A stretch of 21,063 bases of DNA from positions 1 to 21,063 of IMG/VR virus record IMGVR_UViG_3300018428_002002. The stretch is one strand, 5' to 3'. The notes under the pieces were generated by a model that was given only the letters and a program-made list of their open reading frames with translations, was not told the DNA's origin and made no database searches. The position numbers were made by a program, and so were the translations under genes. The DNA comes from a virus. This document shows positions 1,296-20,591 of this stretch, in pieces (within the stretch, counting starts at the first letter, position 1; each line of letters begins with the position of its first letter).

Positions 1296-1324
1296 TATAA
1301 TTAGAATACTGATTGATTATTAAC

Positions 1325-1870
1325 ATGCAAATGGAAACTCGTATTCCCTCAGTCAAGTTTGTACTTCGCAAAGAAGGACCTTGTTTGACTTGTGGTGAAT
1401 TTGAAAAGGTTAATGCCATTGACTTGTTCCAGGGCAAGAGAGTTCTTGTGTTCTCTCTCCCTGGTGCGTTTACACCAACATGCACAACTCAACAACTTCC
1501 TGGTTATGAGGCAAAGTATGATGAGTTTGTTGCCGCTGGTATTGATGAAGTATATTGCATCTCTGTAAATGATGCTTTTGTCATGAATGCCTGGGCAAAG
1601 GAGTTGGGAATCGAAAAGGTTAAGTTGCTTCCCGATGGCAATGCAGACTTTACCCGCAATATGGGTATGCTTGTCTCAAAGGGTAATCTTGGTTTTGGTA
1701 ATCGCTCTTGGCGCTATGCCATGGTTGTTGACGATGGTGTCGTTGAGTGGATGACTGTTGAACCTGGACAGAAGTCTAATGCGACGGATGATCCTTATGG
1801 TATGACTAGTCCAGAGGAACTTCTTAAATACCTGACACGGTATGCTGAGAAGCGTCCAGTTAATTTCTAA
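1325..1870 (+). CDS. Peroxiredoxin, Prx5 / type II (AhpC-TSA superfamily)
   Basis: A thiol peroxidase that reduces hydrogen peroxide and alkyl hydroperoxides in the cytoplasm using a peroxidatic cysteine. The Prx5 active site FSLPGAFTPTCTT is plain, with peroxidatic C53 (numbered from the ATG at 1325) and the Pro, Thr and Thr of the PxxxT-C motif. Downstream Prx5 blocks follow: CISVNDAFVMNAWAK, LLPDGNADFTRNMGM and GFGNRSWRYAMVVDDG, including the family Arg (NRSWRY). Length (181 aa) is normal for the subfamily. Unusually, a Cys-x-x-Cys pair (C20, C23) lies near the N terminus where cyanobacterial relatives, as I remember them, have a Gly-Pro-Asn-Pro-rich stretch. No clear Shine-Dalgarno sequence precedes the ATG; TTG at 1313 and ATG at 1331 are alternative starts. 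Beside two hli genes, a photo-oxidative-stress role in the infected cell is a natural inference. Confidence 0.9.
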   Translation: MQMETRIPSVKFVLRKEGPCLTCGEFEKVNAIDLFQGKRVLVFSLPGAFTPTCTTQQLPGYEAKYDEFVAAGIDEVYCISVNDAFVMNAWAKELGIEKVKLLPDGNADFTRNMGMLVSKGNLGFGNRSWRYAMVVDDGVVEWMTVEPGQKSNATDDPYGMTSPEELLKYLTRYAEKRPVNF

Positions 1871-9300: not shown

Positions 9301-12073
9301 TGGTTCTCAATTGACTGGTGTTGGTGCTACCAACCTCAACAGTCTTCTTGATGTCAATGCACCAACTCCTTCTGCTGGTCAGGTTCTGAAGTGGTCTGGT
9401 AGTGAGTGGCAAGCAGCAGCAGACCTTACTGGTGCTGGTGGTACTGGTATTGGACTGTCTGATCTGTCTGTAACTACTGCATCTGTTGGTGTTGCATCAC
9501 TGTCTTACAACAATCAATCTGGTGTATTCACATACACACCACCTGACTTCTCTAGTTACCTCAGCAGTAACATCACAACAAACGTATCCTTAGGTAATGG
9601 ATACACCTTTACTTACGACTCTTCTGCTACTGCAAGGTTTGGAACTGTTGGTAGTAATAATTATGGTGATATCTTCTGGGGCACTGACAGCAGTGCAACT
9701 GGATTCCATATTAAAAACAATGACTTTGATGGTGCTCTCTATCTGACCAACACTGGTACGGATGGTGTATACATCAGATCGACTGCAACTGAACTTGGTG
9801 CGTCCTTCAAGGCAAATGCAGAAGCAAATCTGTACTATGATAATGCACTTAAGTTCTCCACATCAGGAGTAGGTGCTACTGTTTATGGAGACCTTCAGGT
9901 CAACAGTGGTGTAAATATTGCTGGTGTTATCACAGCACAGGAGTTTAAAGGAACATTCACAGGTGTTGTAAACTATGCAACCCTTGCTGGTGTTGCAAGT
10001 ACTGCAAACTATGCAACTGAGTCTGTAACTTCTGGTTATGCAAACGTTGCTGGTATTGCTTCTGGAATCTCTGGAACACCAAACATCACTGTTGGTGAAC
10101 TTACTACCACTGGCGCATTTGTAGTTGGAGCAGGTCAGACCTCTTCCTTCGGTGACAGAGTTACCGTAAGAGATGATCTCAGTGTTGAAGGATCTACACC
10201 TACTCTTAGAGTTCAGGACTCGGATTCTACAGAGAGTTATGCTTATCTTCAGTATGATGCTTCTGGCGATCCAACTTTAAAGTTGAGATCTAGAGCAAAT
10301 ACTAATACACCAGATTTTGTTTGGGATTCTGAAGCATCTGGAGGTATTGATAATACCACTAGATTGATGTATATGAAGGGTGGTCCTCGTGGTAATTATG
10401 ACCATGGATATGTTTCCTTCGGTAGCACAGTTGCTGAAGAGAGACTGCATGTTGGTGGTTCTCTGAAGGTTACTGAGAACATCAATGCTTCTGGTATTAT
10501 CACTGGTAATATCATCAGAGCAACTCAAGGTGTTGATGCTCCTCTTTATATTGCTGAATCTGTAGATGATAATTTTGAGTATAACATGGTTATGCTCAGT
10601 GGAACTGGTCAAGGCGGTAATGCTTATCGCGTTACCATGGTTGATAATGGTGGAATCACATTCAACCCATTCCAGAATAGACTGACACTTAATAATGTGA
10701 CAGCGAATCAGTTTGGATTCTTCGGTAATGGTACTAACATTACTGGTATTCCAACTGCAATCATCGCTGGTAATGGAATCTCTATTGGTTCTTCTACTGG
10801 TCTTGTCACTATCAGTGCAACTGCAACTGGAATCAGTACTACTGAGACTCTGGTAACTGCTGGTATAAATGCTCTTGGTGTTGTAACTGCAACTCAGTTT
10901 GTTGGTGATGGTTCTGGACTGACTGGTATTGTTGCTTCTGGATCTGGTGTTGTTATTCAAGACGAGGGTAGCAACATTGGTACTGCAGGAACAATCAACT
11001 TTGTTGGTACTAATGTAAGTTCTTCGCTCTCTAATGGAACTGCCACAGTCACTGTTGGTGATGCATATGCTCAGGTTGCTGGTGTTGCAACAGTTGCTCA
11101 AGGACTGACTGGCACTCCTAATATTATCGCTGGATTCACCACCACTAATGATCTTTATGTTCAGGGTGGAAATCTTGGTATTGGTTTGGATCCAAACCCA
11201 TCATATTCTATTGATTGTCTCGATAGCATTAGAACATTTGGTGGTGAGATTTGGATGCCAAGAGGATCTAATGGATCCCTTCTCCTTAGAAATGCTATTG
11301 ATAACCTTCGTGAGATTAACAGTGTTGGATCTGGATCCCATATTATCATTCAGCATCCTTCTTACAATGGTGGAGTTGGTATTGGTACAACCGTCCTGGA
11401 TGGATATAAGTTTAGAGTCCATGGAGGATCTCAATTCTCTGGTATCGTAACCGCAACTCAGTTTGTTGGTGATGGTTCTCTCCTGACAGGCATTGTTGCT
11501 TCTGGAACTGGTATTACCATCCAGGAAGAAGGATCTAATGTTGGTACTGCAAGTACAATCAACTTCGTTGGTGCTGCTGTAACTGCAACCATCTCTTCTG
11601 GAACTGCAACTATTAATATTAGTCCTGCAGTATCCACTGGATCTGGTGGTAAGTTTGTTGATAATATTGCTGGAATTCATACAACTTCTGCAGTTGGTGT
11701 CAAGACTGATCAACCCAAGTCGGCTCTTCAAGTTGAGACATTTGGTATAGAAGCAGGCATTGGAACATTTGTTGCTGTTGTTGGTACACCAGTTGACATT
11801 GATCAATTCAATGTGAGCACATCTCCATTCAGAACGGCAGAATACACTTTGCACATTCATCATGCAAATGGTATGCAATCACAGAAGGTCCTGGTTATGC
11901 AGGATGGATCTAATGCATACTCTAACGAGTTTGCGATTATGTATTCATCTACAGATGCTCTTGTCTCCTTCGCATCTACTGTGACTGGCGGTGTATGTAA
12001 ACTGCAAGCAACACCATTGACAGGAACAACTGGTATAACTACATATAGATTCTCTAGAGGAACTCTTCTCTGA
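6329..12073 (+). CDS. Giant tail-fibre-like virion protein, 1914 aa, with GDGSxLTG repeats
   Basis: A host-recognition or virion-surface fibre of the kind found in marine T4-like cyanophages. The N-terminal 160 residues are charged and helical (KLGKKSRQIEENLKKLDKEL and on), a likely coiled coil for attachment or trimerisation. The rest is repetitive beta-structure. FxGDGSxLTG-type motifs start at about residues 384, 473, 593 (degenerate), 635, 988, 1465 (degenerate), 1524 and 1712, and DLQIFHDG-type units occur, for example at about 515. A TLDTLQELATALGDDPNFA module lies at about 660-690 and is shared with other phage fibres. Two 126-bp units 564 bp apart encode near-identical repeats. The C-terminal 130 residues (from about SALQVETFGIEAGIGTFVAV) form a non-repetitive tip-like domain ending TTYRFSRGTLL; no intramolecular chaperone (S74) motif is seen. 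The stop overlaps the glycosyltransferase start (TGATG). A weak GGGAT precedes the ATG. Confidence 0.88.
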   Translation: MGTFRKSLKLGKKSRQIEENLKKLDKELEKTGALDETAKTPAAPQEEQLRKFDWRREFFPEKDQYEMVNLLYEERQQKLKDAIGEEKIRIAEEVESLREAVEKKRELKQLQKVDQHLANIDVEFYKLRDDLVENINENMFPNIPAIEQKLDEILTVYGKLSDRISEGFLNEPSGSPQGGDPLAKTDFVTFDQLKQHYSLYLDRISTQLATLGGGGEVELKYLDDVVGIATNPSAYDGKYLKYNHTSRKFEFSDVGPIGITTELQTLNNVMGLGNTSNIGMSVGVSTFAGKVTVGGATTALVVDGNVRVVGLLTVGSGTIVIDGDNDSIGIGSVTLSETKVTQLDNLTGDTGNFSGDVKVVGVLTALSLDSSNVSVAGSITGTTFYGDGSQLTGVSAGVGTTSISTESITVTGILTAGQIKRPDGLATQFLKADGSVDSNTYLTAEAQNLDGILALGNTTTRGMSVGVLTATSFVGDGSGLTNLVFTGGDIIFTGITTFNTNALFADNRKAVFGTGSDLQIFHDGADSYISELGTGKLILNTNGPNIELKYNNAEFAAKFNQDAGALFYYNNLSKLEILGTGATTYGTHYATSFAGSGASLTGITTAQIVDFGNVVFGIGSSTNVNTTGTITAGAFYGDGSTLTGIATPAFVNQKIADLVDSAPSTLDTLQELATALGDDPNFATTTTNLIGTKASLAGAAFTGSVTVSNGYLSVGSTMLSQSRLYAKERVYIGENENIQLYQVETGNPVFLTYSYLDLASGGSAGSSGVIKHGNRDGFYGGELSIQNGGNLKSAVFNSGWGGVDLYHCVSGDFPTLRFSTTATGAGVVGILTADRMVGAATSNIIPFLYADPSALPSAGDYHGAFAHVHSTGGAYFAHGGVWTRLVQYDATESNVSIGTANFTTSGNIGAGIVTGTSAEFRNLRLGTFGTNNIYGVSGPLYLDSEHGEVDVVNNFHVNGISTLGRVVAQDIVGLSSANFSGIVTAQSFRGDGSQLTGVGATNLNSLLDVNAPTPSAGQVLKWSGSEWQAAADLTGAGGTGIGLSDLSVTTASVGVASLSYNNQSGVFTYTPPDFSSYLSSNITTNVSLGNGYTFTYDSSATARFGTVGSNNYGDIFWGTDSSATGFHIKNNDFDGALYLTNTGTDGVYIRSTATELGASFKANAEANLYYDNALKFSTSGVGATVYGDLQVNSGVNIAGVITAQEFKGTFTGVVNYATLAGVASTANYATESVTSGYANVAGIASGISGTPNITVGELTTTGAFVVGAGQTSSFGDRVTVRDDLSVEGSTPTLRVQDSDSTESYAYLQYDASGDPTLKLRSRANTNTPDFVWDSEASGGIDNTTRLMYMKGGPRGNYDHGYVSFGSTVAEERLHVGGSLKVTENINASGIITGNIIRATQGVDAPLYIAESVDDNFEYNMVMLSGTGQGGNAYRVTMVDNGGITFNPFQNRLTLNNVTANQFGFFGNGTNITGIPTAIIAGNGISIGSSTGLVTISATATGISTTETLVTAGINALGVVTATQFVGDGSGLTGIVASGSGVVIQDEGSNIGTAGTINFVGTNVSSSLSNGTATVTVGDAYAQVAGVATVAQGLTGTPNIIAGFTTTNDLYVQGGNLGIGLDPNPSYSIDCLDSIRTFGGEIWMPRGSNGSLLLRNAIDNLREINSVGSGSHIIIQHPSYNGGVGIGTTVLDGYKFRVHGGSQFSGIVTATQFVGDGSLLTGIVASGTGITIQEEGSNVGTASTINFVGAAVTATISSGTATINISPAVSTGSGGKFVDNIAGIHTTSAVGVKTDQPKSALQVETFGIEAGIGTFVAVVGTPVDIDQFNVSTSPFRTAEYTLHIHHANGMQSQKVLVMQDGSNAYSNEFAIMYSSTDALVSFASTVTGGVCKLQATPLTGTTGITTYRFSRGTLL
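10883..11008 (+). repeat. Direct repeat copy 1 inside the 1914-aa fibre
   Basis: This 126-bp segment aligns without gaps to 11447-11572 (offset 564 bp). It encodes VTATQFVGDGSGLTGIVASG and the following GSNIGTAGTINFVG. Most differences are at third positions or are conservative, so the unit was duplicated and then kept at the protein level. Confidence 0.85.
11447..11572 (+). repeat. Direct repeat copy 2 inside the 1914-aa fibre
   Basis: The partner of 10883-11008, encoding VTATQFVGDGSLLTGIVASG and then GSNVGTASTINFVG. In-phase repeats of this kind let fibre length change by recombination. Confidence 0.85.
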
Positions 12074-13167
12074 TGGCAATACGATTAAATGAAGAACACC
12101 AGACCACGGGGAGTGGTCTGGGATATCAAATGTCCTCATATGTTCTTATGAGGTCTTTGGCAAATAGGACTGGATTTAAATATGCTATAGATCCTCAGAA
12201 TTTGTATGCGCTGAAAAATACCTTTGATGGTTTAGTGATTGACGAAGAAGATGCTCCTGGGGTTCAAGGGAAGCATAGTGTTGAGTTTATGATTGATGAC
12301 TCGTTTGATGATGTATTGAAAACAGTCAAAGACAACACAACGTTGTATGGATATCCAACTCCATCGAATGCAATTGATATCACTCAGATTGAAGAAGTAA
12401 AATCTCATTTTAAATTTAGAGATGAGATTGAAAGTAGATGTAAGTCTTGGAAAGAAAGTGTAGTTGGTGATAGTGAAGTCATCGCAATTCATCTTCGCAG
12501 AGGTGACTTTGTAGATGATTACAGTGGAATGTTCTTGATTGATGATGACTACTATCTTAAAGCATTAAAGTTACTCCCAAAAGATATTCCTGTTTTAATT
12601 TTTACTAACGATAAGGAATATGTCCGTGGTAATGAGAATTTTAGTGGAGATAGATTTATTTTAGTTGATGATATTGTCAACTTCAATCAACCAACTAGTG
12701 ATCTATCTAGAGAAATAGATATAAATGTTGACAAGTCTGGAGATAATCTGTTTAATTATTCAGTTGTCCTAGAGTCGATGGGCAATCCTGAATTGGATGA
12801 CTATCTTCAGAATAAAATAGATAATAGATTATATAATTATTCGCATGACATGTGCTTGATGAGTATGTGTGATTATCATGTGATTGCAAATAGTACATTT
12901 AGTCTCTGGGCAGTAGAACTCTCAAATACCAAGAGAGTTGTTTATCCAATGTATTGGTCTCAGGGACTCAGTGATGATATAGATGCTGTTCTATGTGATA
13001 ATCCTGAGTCTTGTCGTCCTGGATTCAGGTGCAATCAAGATACTACGATTGCTAGAGATTTGGGTGGATTTGATCAAACCGCTTCTGCGTTGGGATATTT
13101 TATGAAGGATGACTGGATTGGATTGGAGAATCCAGATCAACGCGCTAAGAAATGGGGGTGCTGCTAA
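12073..13167 (+). CDS. GT11-family glycosyltransferase (alpha-1,2-fucosyltransferase-like)
   Basis: A 364-residue protein with the blocks of glycosyltransferase family 11, which transfers fucose from GDP-fucose to a sugar. The N-terminal GLGYQMSSYVLMRSLANRTG (from residue 15) corresponds to the family's GGLGNQMFQYAxGRALA block. The nucleotide-sugar motif HLRRGDF starts at H140 (R142, R143, D145). LIFTNDKEY and the C-terminal block VIANSTFSLWAVEL (ANSTFS at 272-277) are the other GT11 signatures. The C-terminal 60 residues are unusually Cys-rich and end Trp-Gly-Cys-Cys. The start overlaps the fibre stop (TGATG), and 0 bp separate its stop from the protease ATG, so it is co-translated with virion genes. 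Modification of the fibre or of host surface glycans is inferred. The donor sugar cannot be fixed from sequence alone. Confidence 0.85.
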   Translation: MAIRLNEEHQTTGSGLGYQMSSYVLMRSLANRTGFKYAIDPQNLYALKNTFDGLVIDEEDAPGVQGKHSVEFMIDDSFDDVLKTVKDNTTLYGYPTPSNAIDITQIEEVKSHFKFRDEIESRCKSWKESVVGDSEVIAIHLRRGDFVDDYSGMFLIDDDYYLKALKLLPKDIPVLIFTNDKEYVRGNENFSGDRFILVDDIVNFNQPTSDLSREIDINVDKSGDNLFNYSVVLESMGNPELDDYLQNKIDNRLYNYSHDMCLMSMCDYHVIANSTFSLWAVELSNTKRVVYPMYWSQGLSDDIDAVLCDNPESCRPGFRCNQDTTIARDLGGFDQTASALGYFMKDDWIGLENPDQRAKKWGCC

Positions 13168-15354
13168 ATGTCTGAGAAGAAGCGTTACATTGTTGGATGT
13201 ACTGCCCCAGCAGACTGGGAGTATATTCACGAACTATTAACTCAGGATGGAACATTAGATGATAATATTCCAACTGAAGCGATCACTAGTGACGACTTAA
13301 AAGAACATAGTCCAACCAGAGCATCTTATCTTTTAACAGATGAGGAAGCTGCACTTGTTGAGGCGCATGAAAAAGTTCTCTATTGTCACATAGCACAAGA
13401 AGACTTCTCACCACCACAAGAAGAGTTACATGCGACTCCTCAACAAGGATTTCGTCAAGTAGGCATTACCTCACAATATCGTCGTTGGGAAGCATTTAAT
13501 CTTATTACTACTACTGGTGGTAATACTCAAGATTTTGATATGGGTCGTAGTGGATTCCAATTGCTTAGACATTCACAAGCAGAAGACCCTTGGTATGATG
13601 GTACATCCAATGGTGGTAGACAGGTATTTGATAATAGAGTTCCTCGCTATGGTAGTGGTAAGAACGTTGATGTAATTGTATGTGACGAAGGATTTTGGTT
13701 GGGTCATATTGAGTTTTATAATCCATCTGATGTTAGAGATATTAGTAATAGCACCACAGATGGTAATGGAGATCCATACATCTTTGGTCCTGAGGATATG
13801 ATTGAGGGTAATGTCCTCAACAGTAACGGAAGATGCTATGCTCTTGATTTAATTGTTGATGCTCCATACTATATTGATCCTGACTTTTTTAATGCAAGTC
13901 CTGGAACTAGACTTGAAACGAGATGGGATGGAACAACCGTTCCTGTAAGTAGTGTTGCGGTAAACTGGTGGAGAAATAATACAACAACTTATCGCTCTGT
14001 TGGATTCACCACTTTTGGTACAGCAGCTGTTAGCACTGCATATAATAGAACAGATTCCAATGGAACAAATACATCAACTGCATATCAGAGTACTCATGGA
14101 ACTCAGTGTGCTGCTTCTTGCTTTGGCAGAACTCAAGGGTGGGCATACAATGCAAACAAGTGGGTATTGAATCTGTATGGATCTAGAAGTTCTGGTATTG
14201 AAGCAGGATTTGATGCCCAGAAGTTGTTCCACCAGATGAAACCAAATAACTCTGAACTTGGAACAAAGGATCCTACGATCAGTTCTAATAGTTGGGGTTA
14301 TCGTGCTGTCCCTAGTTCTTCTGGATACTCCTTTTATCAAGGAGCGGGTGGGGTAGCTTATACTAATGGTGGTAGTTGGTCCCTAGGACCATTTAACAGC
14401 AGTAATACCAGACCTGGATTCCAAAGGTATGTTGGATGGTATGGAGATTATTATGGTGGTCCAAGAATGAAGGGTGAGATGCTCCCTAATTCTACGACTC
14501 AAGCATTGGACGAATTGATTGCTGAAGGTGTTATCTTTGTTGGTGCCGCAGGAAACTCAAATCAAAAACAAACTAGTTGGGATCATCCAGATTTTAATAA
14601 CTACTGGAACACTGGTATTGGTGCTACTGTTGGAGATAACTTCTTCTATGAGTTTGGTCTGAGAGTATACCCATATTCAAATAGGAGAGGATTCCCTCAG
14701 CATGGTGGTATGATTAGAAGTGGTGTTGGTGGAACGGTTTACACATATCCTGTGATTAACATTGGTGCTCTTGATGATGATTATGCATCTACTCAAAGTT
14801 ATAAGGAGCGTAAGGTAAATTATAGTGATATGGGTAGTGAAATTGATTGCTATGCCGCTGCTGATGGTATCCTTACCGCAAAGAATGTAAGTGGATCTGG
14901 TAGAGCAAGACATGACACCAAACCATCTGGAGAAAGTGGATTTACTTATTATTATGATAATAAGTTCAGTGGAACCAGTGCGGCATGTCCTGTCGCATGT
15001 GGAATAATTGCAACTAAGTTAGAATATAATCGTAACTGGGGTTGGCAAGACGTAAGGAATTGGTTGAGAGGAGAGAACCAACCAGTTGGCGTGGGATCTA
15101 CACTGGCAAGAATGGAGAGTAACAAGTTTCATTTTGGTGTTGATAGCAACACTGCTGGATATGGTGATCAGGGTGGACAATCTACCTGGTCTGATGTTAA
15201 TAGTCTTGAGGGGTCTCTTCCAATTGTTATCTACGATGCGGAGACTGGTAATGAAACAGAACAGTCAAGTGGATCACCTGTTATTGAAGGAGTTAAAGTA
15301 TTCTCTGGTGATGGGATGGAGATTACAGGTAACTTTACAATATCTTACGAGTGA
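13168..15354 (+). CDS. Subtilisin-family (S8) serine protease, probably virion associated
   Basis: A 728-residue subtilase. The catalytic set is complete: Asp in VDVIVCDEGF (D173), His in STHGTQCAAS (H310), oxyanion Asn in VGAAGNSN (N463) and Ser in FSGTSAACPVACG (S604), the last an exact match to the S8 serine consensus. Residues 6-75 (KRYIVGCTAPADWEYIHELL, then SYLLTDEEAALVEAHEKVLY) look like an I9-type propeptide or a fold of that kind. The Asp-His (137) and His-Ser (294) spacings are about twice those of subtilisin, implying large surface loops. There is no signal peptide. The gene sits between a GT11 gene (stop directly before its ATG) and a second fibre, so fibre maturation or digestion of host surface protein are the likely roles. 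I recall related subtilases in marine T4-like phages. The 120-residue tail after Ser604 is of unknown use. Confidence 0.9.
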   Translation: MSEKKRYIVGCTAPADWEYIHELLTQDGTLDDNIPTEAITSDDLKEHSPTRASYLLTDEEAALVEAHEKVLYCHIAQEDFSPPQEELHATPQQGFRQVGITSQYRRWEAFNLITTTGGNTQDFDMGRSGFQLLRHSQAEDPWYDGTSNGGRQVFDNRVPRYGSGKNVDVIVCDEGFWLGHIEFYNPSDVRDISNSTTDGNGDPYIFGPEDMIEGNVLNSNGRCYALDLIVDAPYYIDPDFFNASPGTRLETRWDGTTVPVSSVAVNWWRNNTTTYRSVGFTTFGTAAVSTAYNRTDSNGTNTSTAYQSTHGTQCAASCFGRTQGWAYNANKWVLNLYGSRSSGIEAGFDAQKLFHQMKPNNSELGTKDPTISSNSWGYRAVPSSSGYSFYQGAGGVAYTNGGSWSLGPFNSSNTRPGFQRYVGWYGDYYGGPRMKGEMLPNSTTQALDELIAEGVIFVGAAGNSNQKQTSWDHPDFNNYWNTGIGATVGDNFFYEFGLRVYPYSNRRGFPQHGGMIRSGVGGTVYTYPVINIGALDDDYASTQSYKERKVNYSDMGSEIDCYAAADGILTAKNVSGSGRARHDTKPSGESGFTYYYDNKFSGTSAACPVACGIIATKLEYNRNWGWQDVRNWLRGENQPVGVGSTLARMESNKFHFGVDSNTAGYGDQGGQSTWSDVNSLEGSLPIVIYDAETGNETEQSSGSPVIEGVKVFSGDGMEITGNFTISYE

Positions 15355-15382: not shown

Positions 15383-18154
15383 ATGGCAGATAGATCTTTT
15401 GGTGTAAGAGAGATTAATATTGTTGGATCTGCTGGTACTCCTACGATCTCCAGTCCAGATAATATTAATCTGAATGGCAACAGAGTTGCTATTAGCACCG
15501 ACCTTCAGGTTGGAAGGAATGCAACCGTTAGTGGCATCATAACTGCTAATGCTTTTTACGGTGATGGAACTAATCTGACTGGTGTAACAGGTGTTGGCAC
15601 TCAGCGTGGAGATGATGAAGCACTAAACTTTGGAGATTCTGACGATCTTCAAATCTATCATAATGGTGTCAGTAATATTATTACGGGTATTAGTTCCAGG
15701 GGTACTGGAAAGGTAGATACTTTTCTTACAGTTCATGACCTCTATGTTAATGTTCATAGTGGTCAATATGCTTCTGCTAGATTCAAGGCAGGATCTGTTG
15801 GTGTAGAATTATACTCTGGTACTGCTAATAATAATGTTGGGTATCTTAGATTTGCTGCTGCTGGTATTGGTTGTACCGTATATGGTGATCTGAGAGTTAC
15901 CGCAGGAACTGGTGGATCTGGTGGAGCAGCATTCAGACGTAACGTTGCAATCGGAACAGATGTTCTTGAGGCAACTGATGCCCTTCTTGTGAAGGGAGAT
16001 GCAAATATAACTGGTGTTGTCACTGCAAACCAATTTGTTGGTGATGGTTCTCTTCTTACTAATCTCCCTGGTGGTGGAGGGGGAGGTTCTATTGCAGGTA
16101 TCGATACTGTCGGTACTTCGTTCTTTAATACTTTACATGCAACTGGAACCATTGACATTGGAACATCCAATGCTGGTGTTGCTGTAACTCACATGACCAT
16201 TGACTCTGCTGATGTCAGTGGTACTATTCGTAATAGAATTCAGAGTGGTGCTGGTAATACTAATGCTGTTCTGGACATTCAAACCAAAGAATTCTTAGTA
16301 ACAGATCCATATGCTGGTAAGGGATCGCTGATCTCTGCTGATGCATCGGGAACCAAACTATATCAGAACGACTCCGTAAAACTTTCTACCCTTGGAGCAG
16401 GTGCTACTGTCACTGGAACCATGTATGCTACGGCATTCTCTGGTGATGGATCTCAACTGACAGGAGTTCCTATCTCTGGTAATACTGGATCATTTGTTAG
16501 AGTAGACTCTCAAGAATTGGTTGTATCTGGTCTCTCTACATTCCAGGGCAATGTTTACCTTGGCGATGGTGATGTCCTGTATATTGGTGATGGTAATGAT
16601 CTTCAGTTATATCACAACAACGTCAATAGCGTTATAAGAGATGCTGGAACTGGAAGTTTATTCCTCCAATCTAATGACGTTAGATTGATGAGTGTTACTA
16701 ATAGCAACTTTGCTAGGTTCACTGAAGGTGCTGAAGTAGAGCTTTATTATAATGGATCTCAAAAATTCAATACCACTGGATATGGTGTTACTGTCCTTGG
16801 AACATTAGATGCTCAAGGACTTAACATCAGTGGAGTTACTACAACCACTGGTGCTATTCATATTGATTCAGATTCTGCTGATAGAACTGGATCAGCTTTA
16901 AAAATTGGTAATAGTATTAATGGTGATATTAGTATCTATCATACAGGTACAGAAAGTGTTTATTGGGATAATTATGGAAGAACAAGATTTGCTGGTGGCA
17001 AATGGGAGTGGACCAATCTTGCGGATAGTCAACAGGTTGTTGAGTTTGACCAGACTTATGGTGTTAAATTAAATTATTCTGGAACCAGAAGATTCATGAC
17101 CACCAATGATGGTGTTCATGTTTCTGGTATCATGACTGCTACTAGTGTCTCTATTGGTGCTAGTAATGCGGAACCCAATCTCACAATAACATCTGATGGT
17201 ACAGATACCTTTATTAAGGAGTTAAATTCTACTGGCGAACTGACTATCAGTACCAATCAACTCAAGATTGAGAACCCATCGTTTGAGACTCTTGCACGCT
17301 TCAATCAGGACGCAGATGTCAAATTGTATTATGACAATGCAGAGAAGTTTGCAACCACAAGTACTGGTGTAAATGTAAGTGGTATTGTTACTGCAACATC
17401 CTTCTCTGGTGAAGGTGGTGTTACTCGCTGGACCTTAGGTGCTAATGGATCTTCTGACTATACCTTTACTGGTATTGGATTCACAGAGACTAAGAATGAT
17501 CCAGATCTTCATCTTGTTCGTGGTCAGACTTATGAGTTCCTGAATAACTCTGGTGGATCTCATCCATTTGAAATTAGAACCAGTGCTGGTGGACAAGCAT
17601 ATAATCACGGTGTAACTAACAATGGAGCATCTAGTGGAATTATCAAGTTCCAAGTTCCTTATGATGCACCAACAAGTCTTGTCTATATCTGTACTGCTCA
17701 TAGCAGTATGGTTGGTAACATCTATATCGATGATAATACTGTAGGTCCAACCGTTCAAAACTTCACTGGAATTGTAACTGCAACCTCATTCCAAGGTAAC
17801 AGCACAACTGGTGATGGAAGCGACAGGGGATTTACCACCAAGTATTACATCACTGCTGATGGTTCTTCTAACTATAGATTTGCTGGACCAGGTGTTCTCA
17901 ATACCACTAATGACCCAACTCTTTACTTCCATAGAGGATTCACTTATATTTTAGAGAACTCTACTGGAAGTGGTCACCCATTTGAGTTGAGAGTTAGTGC
18001 TGGTGGTGCAGCATACAATCCAGGAGGAAGTTTCCTGACAGGATCCATTAATGGTACTCAGGTACTTACGGTTCCCATGGATGCTCCTAGTTCTATTGTA
18101 TACCAGTGTACTCTTCACAGCGGTATGTTGGGCACAATTAACTTCGTAAGCTGA
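15383..18154 (+). CDS. Fibre-like virion protein, 923 aa, with two C-terminal cupredoxin (blue-copper) domains
   Basis: The N terminus (MADRSFGVREINIVGSAGTP) is a start I associate with cyanophage fibre-like structural proteins. FxGDGxxLT motifs lie at about residues 58, 218 and 352, and DLQIYHNG / LYYDN..KF repeats at about 80, 400 and 630, matching those of the 1914-aa fibre. The last 245 residues are different: two tandem domains of about 105 residues (about 679-783 and 818-923). Domain 1 has GGSHPFEIR (H727) and YICTAHSSMVG (C770, H773, M776); domain 2 has GSGHPFELR (H865) and YQCTLHSGMLG (C909, H912, M915). That is a complete type-1 copper ligand set His-Cys-His-Met with the Cys-x2-His-x2-Met spacing of amicyanin. 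Copper binding on the virion is inferred. No Shine-Dalgarno sequence is seen; a GATAAATA promoter lies upstream. A terminator follows within 40 bp. Confidence 0.88.
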   Translation: MADRSFGVREINIVGSAGTPTISSPDNINLNGNRVAISTDLQVGRNATVSGIITANAFYGDGTNLTGVTGVGTQRGDDEALNFGDSDDLQIYHNGVSNIITGISSRGTGKVDTFLTVHDLYVNVHSGQYASARFKAGSVGVELYSGTANNNVGYLRFAAAGIGCTVYGDLRVTAGTGGSGGAAFRRNVAIGTDVLEATDALLVKGDANITGVVTANQFVGDGSLLTNLPGGGGGGSIAGIDTVGTSFFNTLHATGTIDIGTSNAGVAVTHMTIDSADVSGTIRNRIQSGAGNTNAVLDIQTKEFLVTDPYAGKGSLISADASGTKLYQNDSVKLSTLGAGATVTGTMYATAFSGDGSQLTGVPISGNTGSFVRVDSQELVVSGLSTFQGNVYLGDGDVLYIGDGNDLQLYHNNVNSVIRDAGTGSLFLQSNDVRLMSVTNSNFARFTEGAEVELYYNGSQKFNTTGYGVTVLGTLDAQGLNISGVTTTTGAIHIDSDSADRTGSALKIGNSINGDISIYHTGTESVYWDNYGRTRFAGGKWEWTNLADSQQVVEFDQTYGVKLNYSGTRRFMTTNDGVHVSGIMTATSVSIGASNAEPNLTITSDGTDTFIKELNSTGELTISTNQLKIENPSFETLARFNQDADVKLYYDNAEKFATTSTGVNVSGIVTATSFSGEGGVTRWTLGANGSSDYTFTGIGFTETKNDPDLHLVRGQTYEFLNNSGGSHPFEIRTSAGGQAYNHGVTNNGASSGIIKFQVPYDAPTSLVYICTAHSSMVGNIYIDDNTVGPTVQNFTGIVTATSFQGNSTTGDGSDRGFTTKYYITADGSSNYRFAGPGVLNTTNDPTLYFHRGFTYILENSTGSGHPFELRVSAGGAAYNPGGSFLTGSINGTQVLTVPMDAPSSIVYQCTLHSGMLGTINFVS
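17417..17731 (+). other. Cupredoxin-like domain 1 of the 923-aa fibre
   Basis: Residues about 679-783. Predicted copper ligands are H727, C770, H773 and M776. The distance from the first His to Cys is 43 residues (39 in amicyanin), and the GQTYEFLNNSGGSHPFEI strand-turn-strand resembles the GDTVTWVNND..PHNV region of small blue copper proteins. Confidence 0.75.
17834..18151 (+). other. Cupredoxin-like domain 2 of the 923-aa fibre
   Basis: Residues about 818-923, at the extreme C terminus. Predicted copper ligands are H865, C909, H912 and M915. It aligns with domain 1 throughout (ADGSSNYRF / ANGSSDYTF, GHPFELRVSAGG / SHPFEIRTSAGG), so the pair arose by tandem duplication, yet they are well diverged. 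Confidence 0.75.
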
Positions 18155-18190: not shown

Positions 18191-18212
18191 AAGGGCAGTA
18201 ATGCCCTTTTTT
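18191..18212 (+). terminator. Rho-independent terminator after the fibre cassette
   Basis: The 7-bp stem AAGGGCA / TGCCCTT (18191-18197 and 18202-18208), with a GTAA loop, is followed by a T tract. It ends transcription of the virion cassette only 3 bp before the glgP ATG. Confidence 0.88.
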
Positions 18213-18215
18213 CGT

Positions 18216-20591
18216 ATGGTAACCAACGACATTTGTGATAGAGTTGAGAGTCATCTTCTCTACACACTGGGCAAGCGTCCAGATAAGGCAACATCACATG
18301 ACGTATACACTGCTCTGTGTTACGCGGTAAGGGATAGACTGGTAGACAATTATTTGGTTGACAAAGATCAACGTAAAGAAGTTGCATATCTGTCCGCAGA
18401 GTTTTTGATCGGACCACAGTTAAGCAATAATCTTCTCAATTTAGATATTCGTAGGGATGCTGAGAGTGCGGTCAGTAAGTATGGGTATACGCTAGAAGAA
18501 ATCATTGATCACTCTGTAGAACCTGGACTTGGTAATGGTGGTCTTGGTAGACTCGCTGCATGTTATATGGAGTCAATGGCAACTCTTAAGGTTCCTGCCA
18601 TTGGATACGGGATTAGATATAAGTATGGTATTTTTAAGCAGACGATTAGAGATAATCAGCAGGTAGAGGTTACTGATAATTGGCTGCATGGTGATTGGCC
18701 ATGGGAACTCTGCTATCCTGATGAATCAGTGATGGTTGGATTTGGTGGTAAGGTAGATAGGTATGGTGATAATGTCAGGTGGGTTCCTGATAAGTACGTT
18801 GTTGCAGTTCCTTACGATGTTCTTCAAGCAGGGTATAAGGTAGACAGTTGTGCTAAGATCCGACTTTGGAGAGCAGACGCTATTGATGTGTTTGACTTCA
18901 AAGCATTCAACCAGGGAGACTATCTGGGATCTGTAGAGAATAGTGTAACTACAGAGACTATCTCTAAGGTTCTCTATCCCAATGATGGCACTGATCAGGG
19001 TAAAGAACTGAGACTAAAGCAGCAGTTCTTCTTTGTCAGTGCTTCTCTTCAAGACATGATCCGAAGCATTCTTGAGCGTGGTCTTGCTATTGAGGACTTC
19101 TATCAGTATTATCAAGTTCAATTAAATGATACTCACCCATCAATTGCAGTTGCAGAATTGATGAGACTTCTTATGGATGAGCATCATCTGAATTGGGAAC
19201 TTGCATGGAGTATTACGAGCAAGTCAATTGCATACACTAATCACACCCTGCTTCCAGAGGCATTGGAGAAGTGGAGTGTAAGTCTATTTGAAAAACTTCT
19301 CCCCAGACACCTTGAGATCATTTATGAAATCAATTCCAGATTCCTCCAGATCGTCAGAATGCACTACCCTGGAGACGACGAGACTCTTCGCAAACTGTCT
19401 ATCATCGATGAGACGGGTGGTAGATATGTCAGAATGGCCAATCTTGCAACAGTCGGATCTCACCATATCAATGGTGTTGCTGCACTTCACTCAGATCTGA
19501 TCACTAAGAATCTGATGCCTGAGTTCTATGATCTTTGGCCTCATAAGTTTACCAATGTGACTAATGGTGTGACTCCTCGTCGCTGGTTGGCAGATTCAAA
19601 TCCAGCACTTGCAGAAGTTCTTGATGAGTATGTTGGTGACGACTGGGCATCTAACATGGATCGTCTGTCTGAACTTGAGAATTATGCTAATGATGATGTG
19701 GTCTTGGAGAAGATTGGTGCAACAAAACTCATCGGCAAATTCAAATTAGCACAATATATTAAGAAGACGCTCGGCATCTCTGTTGACCCGTCAAGCATGT
19801 TCGACGTACAGGTAAAGAGAATCCATGAATACAAACGACAGCATCTCCTTGCTTTATGGATTGTGTCTCGGTATTTGTATATCAAAAATCATAAAGACGA
19901 TTATGTTGTTCCACGTACAGTGATCTTTGGGGGCAAGGCAGCACCTGGATACTATATGGCGAAGGAGATCATTCGCTTCATCTGCAATCTTGCTGAGACC
20001 ATCAACTCCGATCCTGATATGGCAGGGAAGTTGCGTGTTGTATTCCTGCCAAACTATAGTGTGAAGTTGGGTGAGAAGGTCTACCCTGCTGCAGATCTCT
20101 CTGAACAGATCTCCACAGCAGGTAAAGAGGCATCTGGTACTGGCAACATGAAGTTTCAGATGAATGGTGCTTTAACAATTGGCACACTTGACGGTGCAAA
20201 CGTGGAGATCCGTGACCTTGTTGGGGAGGAGAACTTCTTCTTGTTTGGCAATACGGAAGAACAGATTGGGGATCTTTGGAAGAATGGATACAATCCAAAG
20301 GACCACATGAGTGGTGGACTATTTGAAGCAATTGAACTGATTAAGTCTGGTCACTTCTCCAATGGTGAGAAGAATGCCTTCTCTGCCATGATCGACAACC
20401 TACTGGAGAAAGATCCATTCTGTGTCTGTGCAGACTTTGCTGACTATAGTCGTGCTCAAACTGTGGTGGATACTACCTGGGGTAATAGGAAGGAGTGGAA
20501 CCGAAGGTCTCTGATCAATATCTCTAGGTCTGGGTTCTTCTCGTCTGATAGATCCATTCAAGACTACTGCGACAACATCTGGAAGGTCTGA
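18216..20591 (+). CDS. glgP: Glycogen phosphorylase (GT35)
   Basis: A full-length (791 aa) alpha-1,4-glucan phosphorylase, which releases glucose-1-phosphate from glycogen using phosphate and pyridoxal phosphate. Family blocks run end to end: AEFLIGPQLSNNLLNL near the N terminus, GNGGLGRLAACYMES, QLNDTHPSIAVAELMRLL, HHINGVAALHSDLI, NVTNGVTPRRWL, DVQVKRIHEYKRQ, GGKAAPGYYMAK and the PLP site EASGTGNMKFQMNGAL with the Schiff-base lysine K646. E. coli GlgP is 815 aa, so nothing large is missing. The start at 18216 is preferred because the in-frame ATG at 18201 lies within the terminator hairpin; neither has a Shine-Dalgarno sequence. The gene has its own sigma-70-like promoter and lies 199 bp upstream of psbA. 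It looks host-derived. It would supply glucose-1-phosphate to glycolysis and the pentose phosphate pathway during infection. Confidence 0.97.
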   Translation: MVTNDICDRVESHLLYTLGKRPDKATSHDVYTALCYAVRDRLVDNYLVDKDQRKEVAYLSAEFLIGPQLSNNLLNLDIRRDAESAVSKYGYTLEEIIDHSVEPGLGNGGLGRLAACYMESMATLKVPAIGYGIRYKYGIFKQTIRDNQQVEVTDNWLHGDWPWELCYPDESVMVGFGGKVDRYGDNVRWVPDKYVVAVPYDVLQAGYKVDSCAKIRLWRADAIDVFDFKAFNQGDYLGSVENSVTTETISKVLYPNDGTDQGKELRLKQQFFFVSASLQDMIRSILERGLAIEDFYQYYQVQLNDTHPSIAVAELMRLLMDEHHLNWELAWSITSKSIAYTNHTLLPEALEKWSVSLFEKLLPRHLEIIYEINSRFLQIVRMHYPGDDETLRKLSIIDETGGRYVRMANLATVGSHHINGVAALHSDLITKNLMPEFYDLWPHKFTNVTNGVTPRRWLADSNPALAEVLDEYVGDDWASNMDRLSELENYANDDVVLEKIGATKLIGKFKLAQYIKKTLGISVDPSSMFDVQVKRIHEYKRQHLLALWIVSRYLYIKNHKDDYVVPRTVIFGGKAAPGYYMAKEIIRFICNLAETINSDPDMAGKLRVVFLPNYSVKLGEKVYPAADLSEQISTAGKEASGTGNMKFQMNGALTIGTLDGANVEIRDLVGEENFFLFGNTEEQIGDLWKNGYNPKDHMSGGLFEAIELIKSGHFSNGEKNAFSAMIDNLLEKDPFCVCADFADYSRAQTVVDTTWGNRKEWNRRSLINISRSGFFSSDRSIQDYCDNIWKV

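Follow-up and report, generated by a model that had tools for sequence, protein, structure and literature searches.

The cupredoxin fold, the concept of metal-bearing phage fibres (iron on HxH motifs; PMC11705849) and free phage plastocyanin (PMC3037559) are already known. The cyanophage plastocyanin PetE (T4-GC 225) is a blue-copper protein coded by cyanomyoviruses (PMC3037559); it is a free electron carrier in a metabolic cassette, and its ligand-loop spacing differs from that of the domains discussed here. The tail fibres with HxH motifs, for example T4 gp37 and that of alterophage R22Y, carry metal sites proposed to aid adsorption (PMC11705849), but the metal is octahedral iron rather than copper in a type-1 site. 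Amicyanin (TIGR02657; PDB 1aac, 1sfd) shares with the phage domains the cupredoxin fold and the C-x2-H-x2-M loop, and among stand-alone blue-copper families it gives the best profile match (E 9e-5). Amicyanin is a free periplasmic electron carrier, whereas the phage domain is a virion domain and scores far under the TIGR02657 cut-off. The best structural match, the N-terminal cupredoxin domain of the Hyphomicrobium nitrite reductase (PDB 2dv6, 6tfd), is part of an enzyme, in contrast to the phage fibre, which has no catalytic partner domain. Among phage proteins, cyanomyovirus gp9 (T4-GC 398, phrog_677) has a C-terminal domain and ligands like those of the fibre described below, yet its N terminus resembles T4 gp10/gp9 and it usually carries one domain, not two.

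In a literature search that did not cover preprints and most subscription journals, no paper was found that describes virion proteins with a conserved type-1 copper site, and the C-terminal domain of gp9 was nowhere described as a copper domain. Type-1 copper sites of this strict conservation, on baseplate and fibre proteins of common marine cyanophages, appear to be undescribed; existing annotations call the carriers "baseplate wedge tail fiber connector" or "hypothetical".

The stretch of viral DNA analysed here, referred to as the window, is 21,063 nucleotides long. On its plus strand an open reading frame at 15383–18154 translates into a tail fibre protein of 923 aa, which matches the PHROG tail-fibre families 8745, 24456 and 3484, and phrog_677 on its C terminus. 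From N to C terminus the fibre consists of an anchor (residues ~1–75) that is common to its own fibre family, a repeat-built shaft and a pair of predicted cupredoxin domains. The first domain (d1; residues ~678–786, 17414–17740, plus strand) matches the family profile with E 3.5e-48. Its first copper ligand is H727 (17561–17563, plus strand), and the remaining three lie in the loop C770-x2-H773-x2-M776 (17690–17710, plus strand); the ligand columns are invariant in 84/84 domains. A linker of ~28 residues (17741–17821, plus strand), whose translation holds the recurring fibre motif GIVTATSF, separates d1 from the second domain (d2; residues ~814–923, 17822–18151, plus strand; family profile E 4.4e-45), which forms the C terminus of the fibre. 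In the translation of d2 the corresponding ligands are H865 (17975–17977, plus strand) and the loop C909-x2-H912-x2-M915 (18107–18127, plus strand). The two domains are 47% identical in an end-to-end alignment, with ligands in register. The sequence-only reading from which this work started had placed two blue-copper domains at 17417–18154. By the family-profile limits (17414–17737 and 17822–18151) this span does comprise both domains and the linker, and the translation puts the protein length and all eight named ligand residues exactly where they had been claimed. The amicyanin-type spacing that had been read from the loop is also correct: the C-x2-H-x2-M loop falls exactly on the amicyanin loop in the family-profile alignment, and the spacing was counted family-wide. 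The distance between the first His and the Cys is mostly 41–47 in the phage domain family.

A structural model supports the assignment. The AlphaFold2 model of d1, built with 32 family sequences, has nine strands, a pLDDT of 93.9 and a pTM of 0.86. Searched against the PDB with Foldseek, it matches 40 chains at E<=0.001, most of which are cupredoxins or multicopper oxidases. With VIA-align, all 50 best rows are copper proteins (Z 9.6–11.9), the top match being 2dv6, the nitrite reductase domain named above (Z 11.9, 1.9 A over 96 residues, 23% identity). A fold other than a cupredoxin would have refuted the original proposal; the model instead gives a confident cupredoxin fold, the Greek-key beta-sandwich of that superfamily, and we take this predicted fold to be virtually certain.

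Profile searches agree when the family is used and are weak when it is not. A profile of 26 family members matches copper nitrite reductase (1.5e-5), amicyanin (9e-5) and plastocyanin (5e-4) in the PDB, and 11 of the 26 members match the amicyanin model TIGR02657 (best E 3e-7). On its own, d1 scores 14.7 bits against TIGR02657, below the curated cut-off of 110.2, and 14.1 bits against PF00127 (Pfam Copper-bind), below the gathering score of 21.2. A search of the whole window with PF00127 gave no match at the Pfam cut-off, and a PDB sequence search with the C terminus of the window fibre as a lone query gave chance matches only. Because the Copper-bind model reaches no better than E 0.07 on d1 and does not match d2, Pfam alone would miss the cupredoxin pair. 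Sequence and model evidence taken together indicate that the two domains at the fibre end are genuine cupredoxins and that both have the complete set of type-1 copper ligands, in amicyanin spacing. In BFVD, weaker structural matches come from giant viruses (pithovirus- and marseillevirus-like), where the proteins are called "beta-sandwich proteins" (e.g. A0A481Z6J5).

The copper ligands are among the most constant columns of the family. Only seven columns show no variation across 84 distinct domains (P707, G714, H727, Y768, C770, H773 and M776), and all four ligands are among them. The probability that four given columns of ~105 land in a random set of seven is ~7e-6; this is a rough figure of our own, as conservation of Cys and His is common and the profile is biased towards its own motif. 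Chance spacing of the ligands is ruled out by the invariance across these 84 domains. In a more permissive set of 156 distinct domains with a median identity of 42%, 148 keep H, C, H and M. Among these 148, the H-x2-M spacing is exact in all and the C-x2-H spacing in 146. Free loss of the ligands in homologues had been named as a second way to refute the proposal; the eight losses are instead confined to one different domain position, and the inference that the ligand set is under selection holds.

All eight exceptions are the second cupredoxin-like region of T4-GC 399. Homologues of this protein (for example L059 from 3343, L071 from 3343 and L044 from 3327) are coded by the gene after gp9 in cyanomyoviruses, are ~998 aa long, are annotated "baseplate wedge subunit" and have two cupredoxin-like regions. 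The first region keeps H, C, H and M. None of the eight distinct sequences of the second region retains the ligand set, although sequence similarity to the family persists. Judged by sequence, this region serves as a natural control: ligands that are not needed can be lost. Since it has lost the ligands and yet stays similar, ligand retention elsewhere can be ascribed to selection. A fibre homologue (L011, from 2470) is probably another ligand-less relative: an insertion splits its domain, and YYQSLIDPNRFG stands where C, H and M are expected. It is not part of the count of 156 domains.

The domain is widespread among cyanophages. With d1 as tblastn query, 344 GenBank phage records are matched, nearly all from cyanophages: 268 are named as Synechococcus phage, 51 as cyanophage, 19 as Prochlorococcus phage, five as marine virus and one as Pelagibacter phage. 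With d2 as query, 332 GenBank phage records are matched. By comparison, 2475 records match when the query is a T4-like major capsid protein; Escherichia phages account for 635 of these and Klebsiella phages for 327, and both groups are absent from the organism tallies of the domain matches (GenBank phage records, E<=1e-3). Among viral contigs, one peptide pattern yields 451 confirmed relatives. No plasmid relatives of the domain were found.

The commonest carrier is gp9 (T4-GC 398), annotated "baseplate wedge tail fiber connector", where the domain is C-terminal. Its family phrog_677 matches the window fibre with E 5.1e-65, the best stretch being residues 786–922 on profile positions 267–409. 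Further carriers are long fibres, T4-GC 399 and the subtilases of S-BM3 and L096, and in the podophages P-GSP1 and P-SCSP2 the domain lies near the protein N terminus. Depending on the protein, its position is C-terminal, N-terminal or internal. The idea of a cupredoxin carried on a virion protein stands, but it is not peculiar to the window fibre, being common in marine cyanophages. The distribution identifies the domain as a putative shuffled virion module of marine cyanophages, found on fibres, gp9-type baseplate proteins and subtilases. Host gene capture was considered as a source: a peptide pattern run over 84,980 genomes gave a single match, the phage-like contig L096. The pattern is narrow, and cellular relatives are not excluded. 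L096 is filed in the bin "Gammaproteobacteria bacterium MED685". Its genes include those for a T4-like capsid protein, a subtilase, a fibre with a cupredoxin domain and a probable haem oxygenase, and this content makes it look like a phage contig that was binned wrongly.

For one gp9-type carrier, presence in the virion rests on published mass spectrometry together with coordinate matching carried out here. In CsCl-purified virions of S-SZBM1, the protein S-SZBM1_206 was detected with nine peptides and 24.9% coverage (PMC9146016). The coding sequence at 146110–147606 of the S-SZBM1 genome, which encodes 498 aa and carries the domain, corresponds to S-SZBM1_206 by length and gene order. The identity is fixed because five neighbouring genes also equal the published lengths (2446, 511, 615, 532 and 6619 aa). 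Virion proteomics, which the sequence-only reading had recommended as a check, thus places a gp9-type carrier in purified S-SZBM1 virions, whereas the fibre of the window itself is yet to be detected in virions.

The N termini of gp9-type carriers match T4 gp10 (E 1e-10) and T4 gp9 (E 2e-4), which are outer baseplate proteins. The N terminus of the window fibre, judged without a comparison of it alone with gp10, appears to differ from the gp9 type and is common to its own fibre family. As it seems not to be of the gp9 type, the exact position of the window fibre on the particle is not fixed. A full-length model of gp9 has a mean pLDDT of 52.7, and since only its C-terminal domain is confident (mostly 77–92), the model was not used for placement.

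The gene that precedes the fibre (13168–15354, plus strand) encodes an S8 subtilase-like protein of 728 aa (PF00082, 53.3 bits vs a cut-off of 21.8), with a candidate triad by motif of D173/H310/S604. An S8 subtilase gene adjoins 31/31 open reading frames that have both the window-type fibre N terminus and a cupredoxin domain, and only 4/177 of the other domain-bearing frames. Many of the 31 loci are close relatives and some are truncated, so the figure describes an association and not 31 independent events. In L096 (5578–7989) and L046 (from 3134), S8 subtilases carry an embedded cupredoxin domain with its four ligands intact. Other genes of the window are recorded for completeness. A glycosyltransferase family 11 (fucosyltransferase-like) gene (12073–13167, plus strand) lies between a 1914-aa fibre and the subtilase. 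Directly 3' of the cupredoxin fibre is a complete glycogen/carbohydrate phosphorylase gene (18201–20591, plus strand; PF00343, 1022 bits), followed by psbA cut by the contig end; the phosphorylase arrangement is also found in L012. A Redoxin/AhpC-family peroxiredoxin gene (1313–1870, plus strand) adjoins a gene for a PstS-like phosphate-binding protein, which is truncated by the start of the contig.

The adjacent domain pair was seen only in this window among the loci read; in L086 and L050 the paired domains are far apart. In a 70-row tree, d2 clades with the C termini of related fibres (98/93 for the nearest six, 97/90 for the wider clade), and d1 is placed elsewhere, close to C termini that belong to other fibres (L006, for example), although the placement of d1 is weak. 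A recent tandem duplication is ruled out by the d2 clade that excludes d1 (97/90) and by the lack of direct DNA repeats of at least 20 bases. Because d1 and d2 take separate tree positions and the linker repeats the GIVTATSF motif, the tandem is best read as the product of domain shuffling within a repeat-built fibre.

Overall, the explanation that best accounts for these data is a shuffled type-1 copper module on virion proteins that serves as a copper-bearing contact domain in adsorption, and we hold it with somewhat more confidence than doubt. Its parts are not equally firm. That each site binds copper is inferred, without copper, spectrum or binding data, and is quite likely. The weakest step is that copper itself matters for adsorption; this is tentative, as an adsorption role rests on position alone. 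Copper would probably be taken from the medium after lysis, since the cytoplasm contains little free copper. The domains, inferred to be exposed at the far fibre end or the baseplate rim, would then act at adsorption as a copper-ordered and possibly redox-switchable contact domain, and the subtilase may trim the fibre or host surface proteins.

The conservation of the ligands bears directly on whether metal is needed at all. An inherited cupredoxin beta-sandwich could serve only as a stable binding knob, like the Ig-like domains of phages, and mobile beta-sandwich modules on phage fibres are often plain adhesins. The mobile position of the domain fits such a use, and the two ligand-less relatives, domain 2 of T4-GC 399 and the L011 fibre, suggest that the fold may be usable without copper. 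Four ligands kept in 148 of 156 domains at 42% median identity, and making up four of the seven invariant columns in the 84-domain set, argue against a metal-free adhesin, which we regard as improbable. The ligand spacing in turn weighs on the idea that an auxiliary metabolic gene for plastocyanin (petE) was joined to a fibre accidentally and that the domain takes part in photosynthetic electron transport. The S-SCSM2R genome annotation does call a relative PetE, but C-x2-H-x2-M is not the plastocyanin spacing, d1 fails the Copper-bind cut-off, the carriers are virion or fibre proteins, and free phage petE forms a separate gene cluster, T4-GC 225 (PMC3037559). This origin can hardly be credited.

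If copper is bound, it could also do more than order the domain. The main rival to the preferred reading is a redox-active centre that exchanges electrons with host-surface or environmental species (superoxide, for example), thereby gating attachment or protecting the fibre. The known stand-alone type-1 copper sites are electron-transfer sites, and a redoxin-family protein is encoded in the window. A redox-active centre could also connect to the light-dependent adsorption known for some cyanophages, which is reported for the cyanomyovirus P-HM2 and not for the podovirus P-SSP7 (PMC7112961). The domain was not checked individually in P-HM2, and light dependence is strain-specific and may have other causes; the published observation makes a redox role worth testing and is not evidence for it. 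We favour a copper-ordered contact domain in adsorption over the redox-active role, which seems unlikely at present. A different use of bound copper would be as a lure, in which a host metal-uptake receptor recognises the copper-loaded fibre, a copper counterpart of the Trojan (Ferrojan) Horse proposed for iron in phage tail fibres. There is a published precedent in the iron-binding HxH motifs that T4, alterophages and cyanophages have in their tail fibres (PMC11705849), and the domain is almost wholly confined to marine cyanophages. A type-1 site, however, buries its copper, unlike a siderophore-like ligand, and no receptor is known, which leaves the lure improbable.

A copper-ordered contact domain, the reading preferred here, means that marine cyanophages with the domain may carry copper at the part of the particle that meets the host. 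A far-reaching version, in which most marine T4-like cyanophages have many working blue-copper sites, filled from seawater, on their fibres and outer baseplate, and use them as a redox switch to control attachment or the triggering of the baseplate, is distinctly unlikely; if true, the switch would be the first redox-metal sensor known on a virion. If the sites are loaded, cyanophage virions would be copper carriers, and the domain would be a concrete and testable candidate for the means by which redox state, copper supply or light acts on adsorption to Synechococcus and Prochlorococcus.
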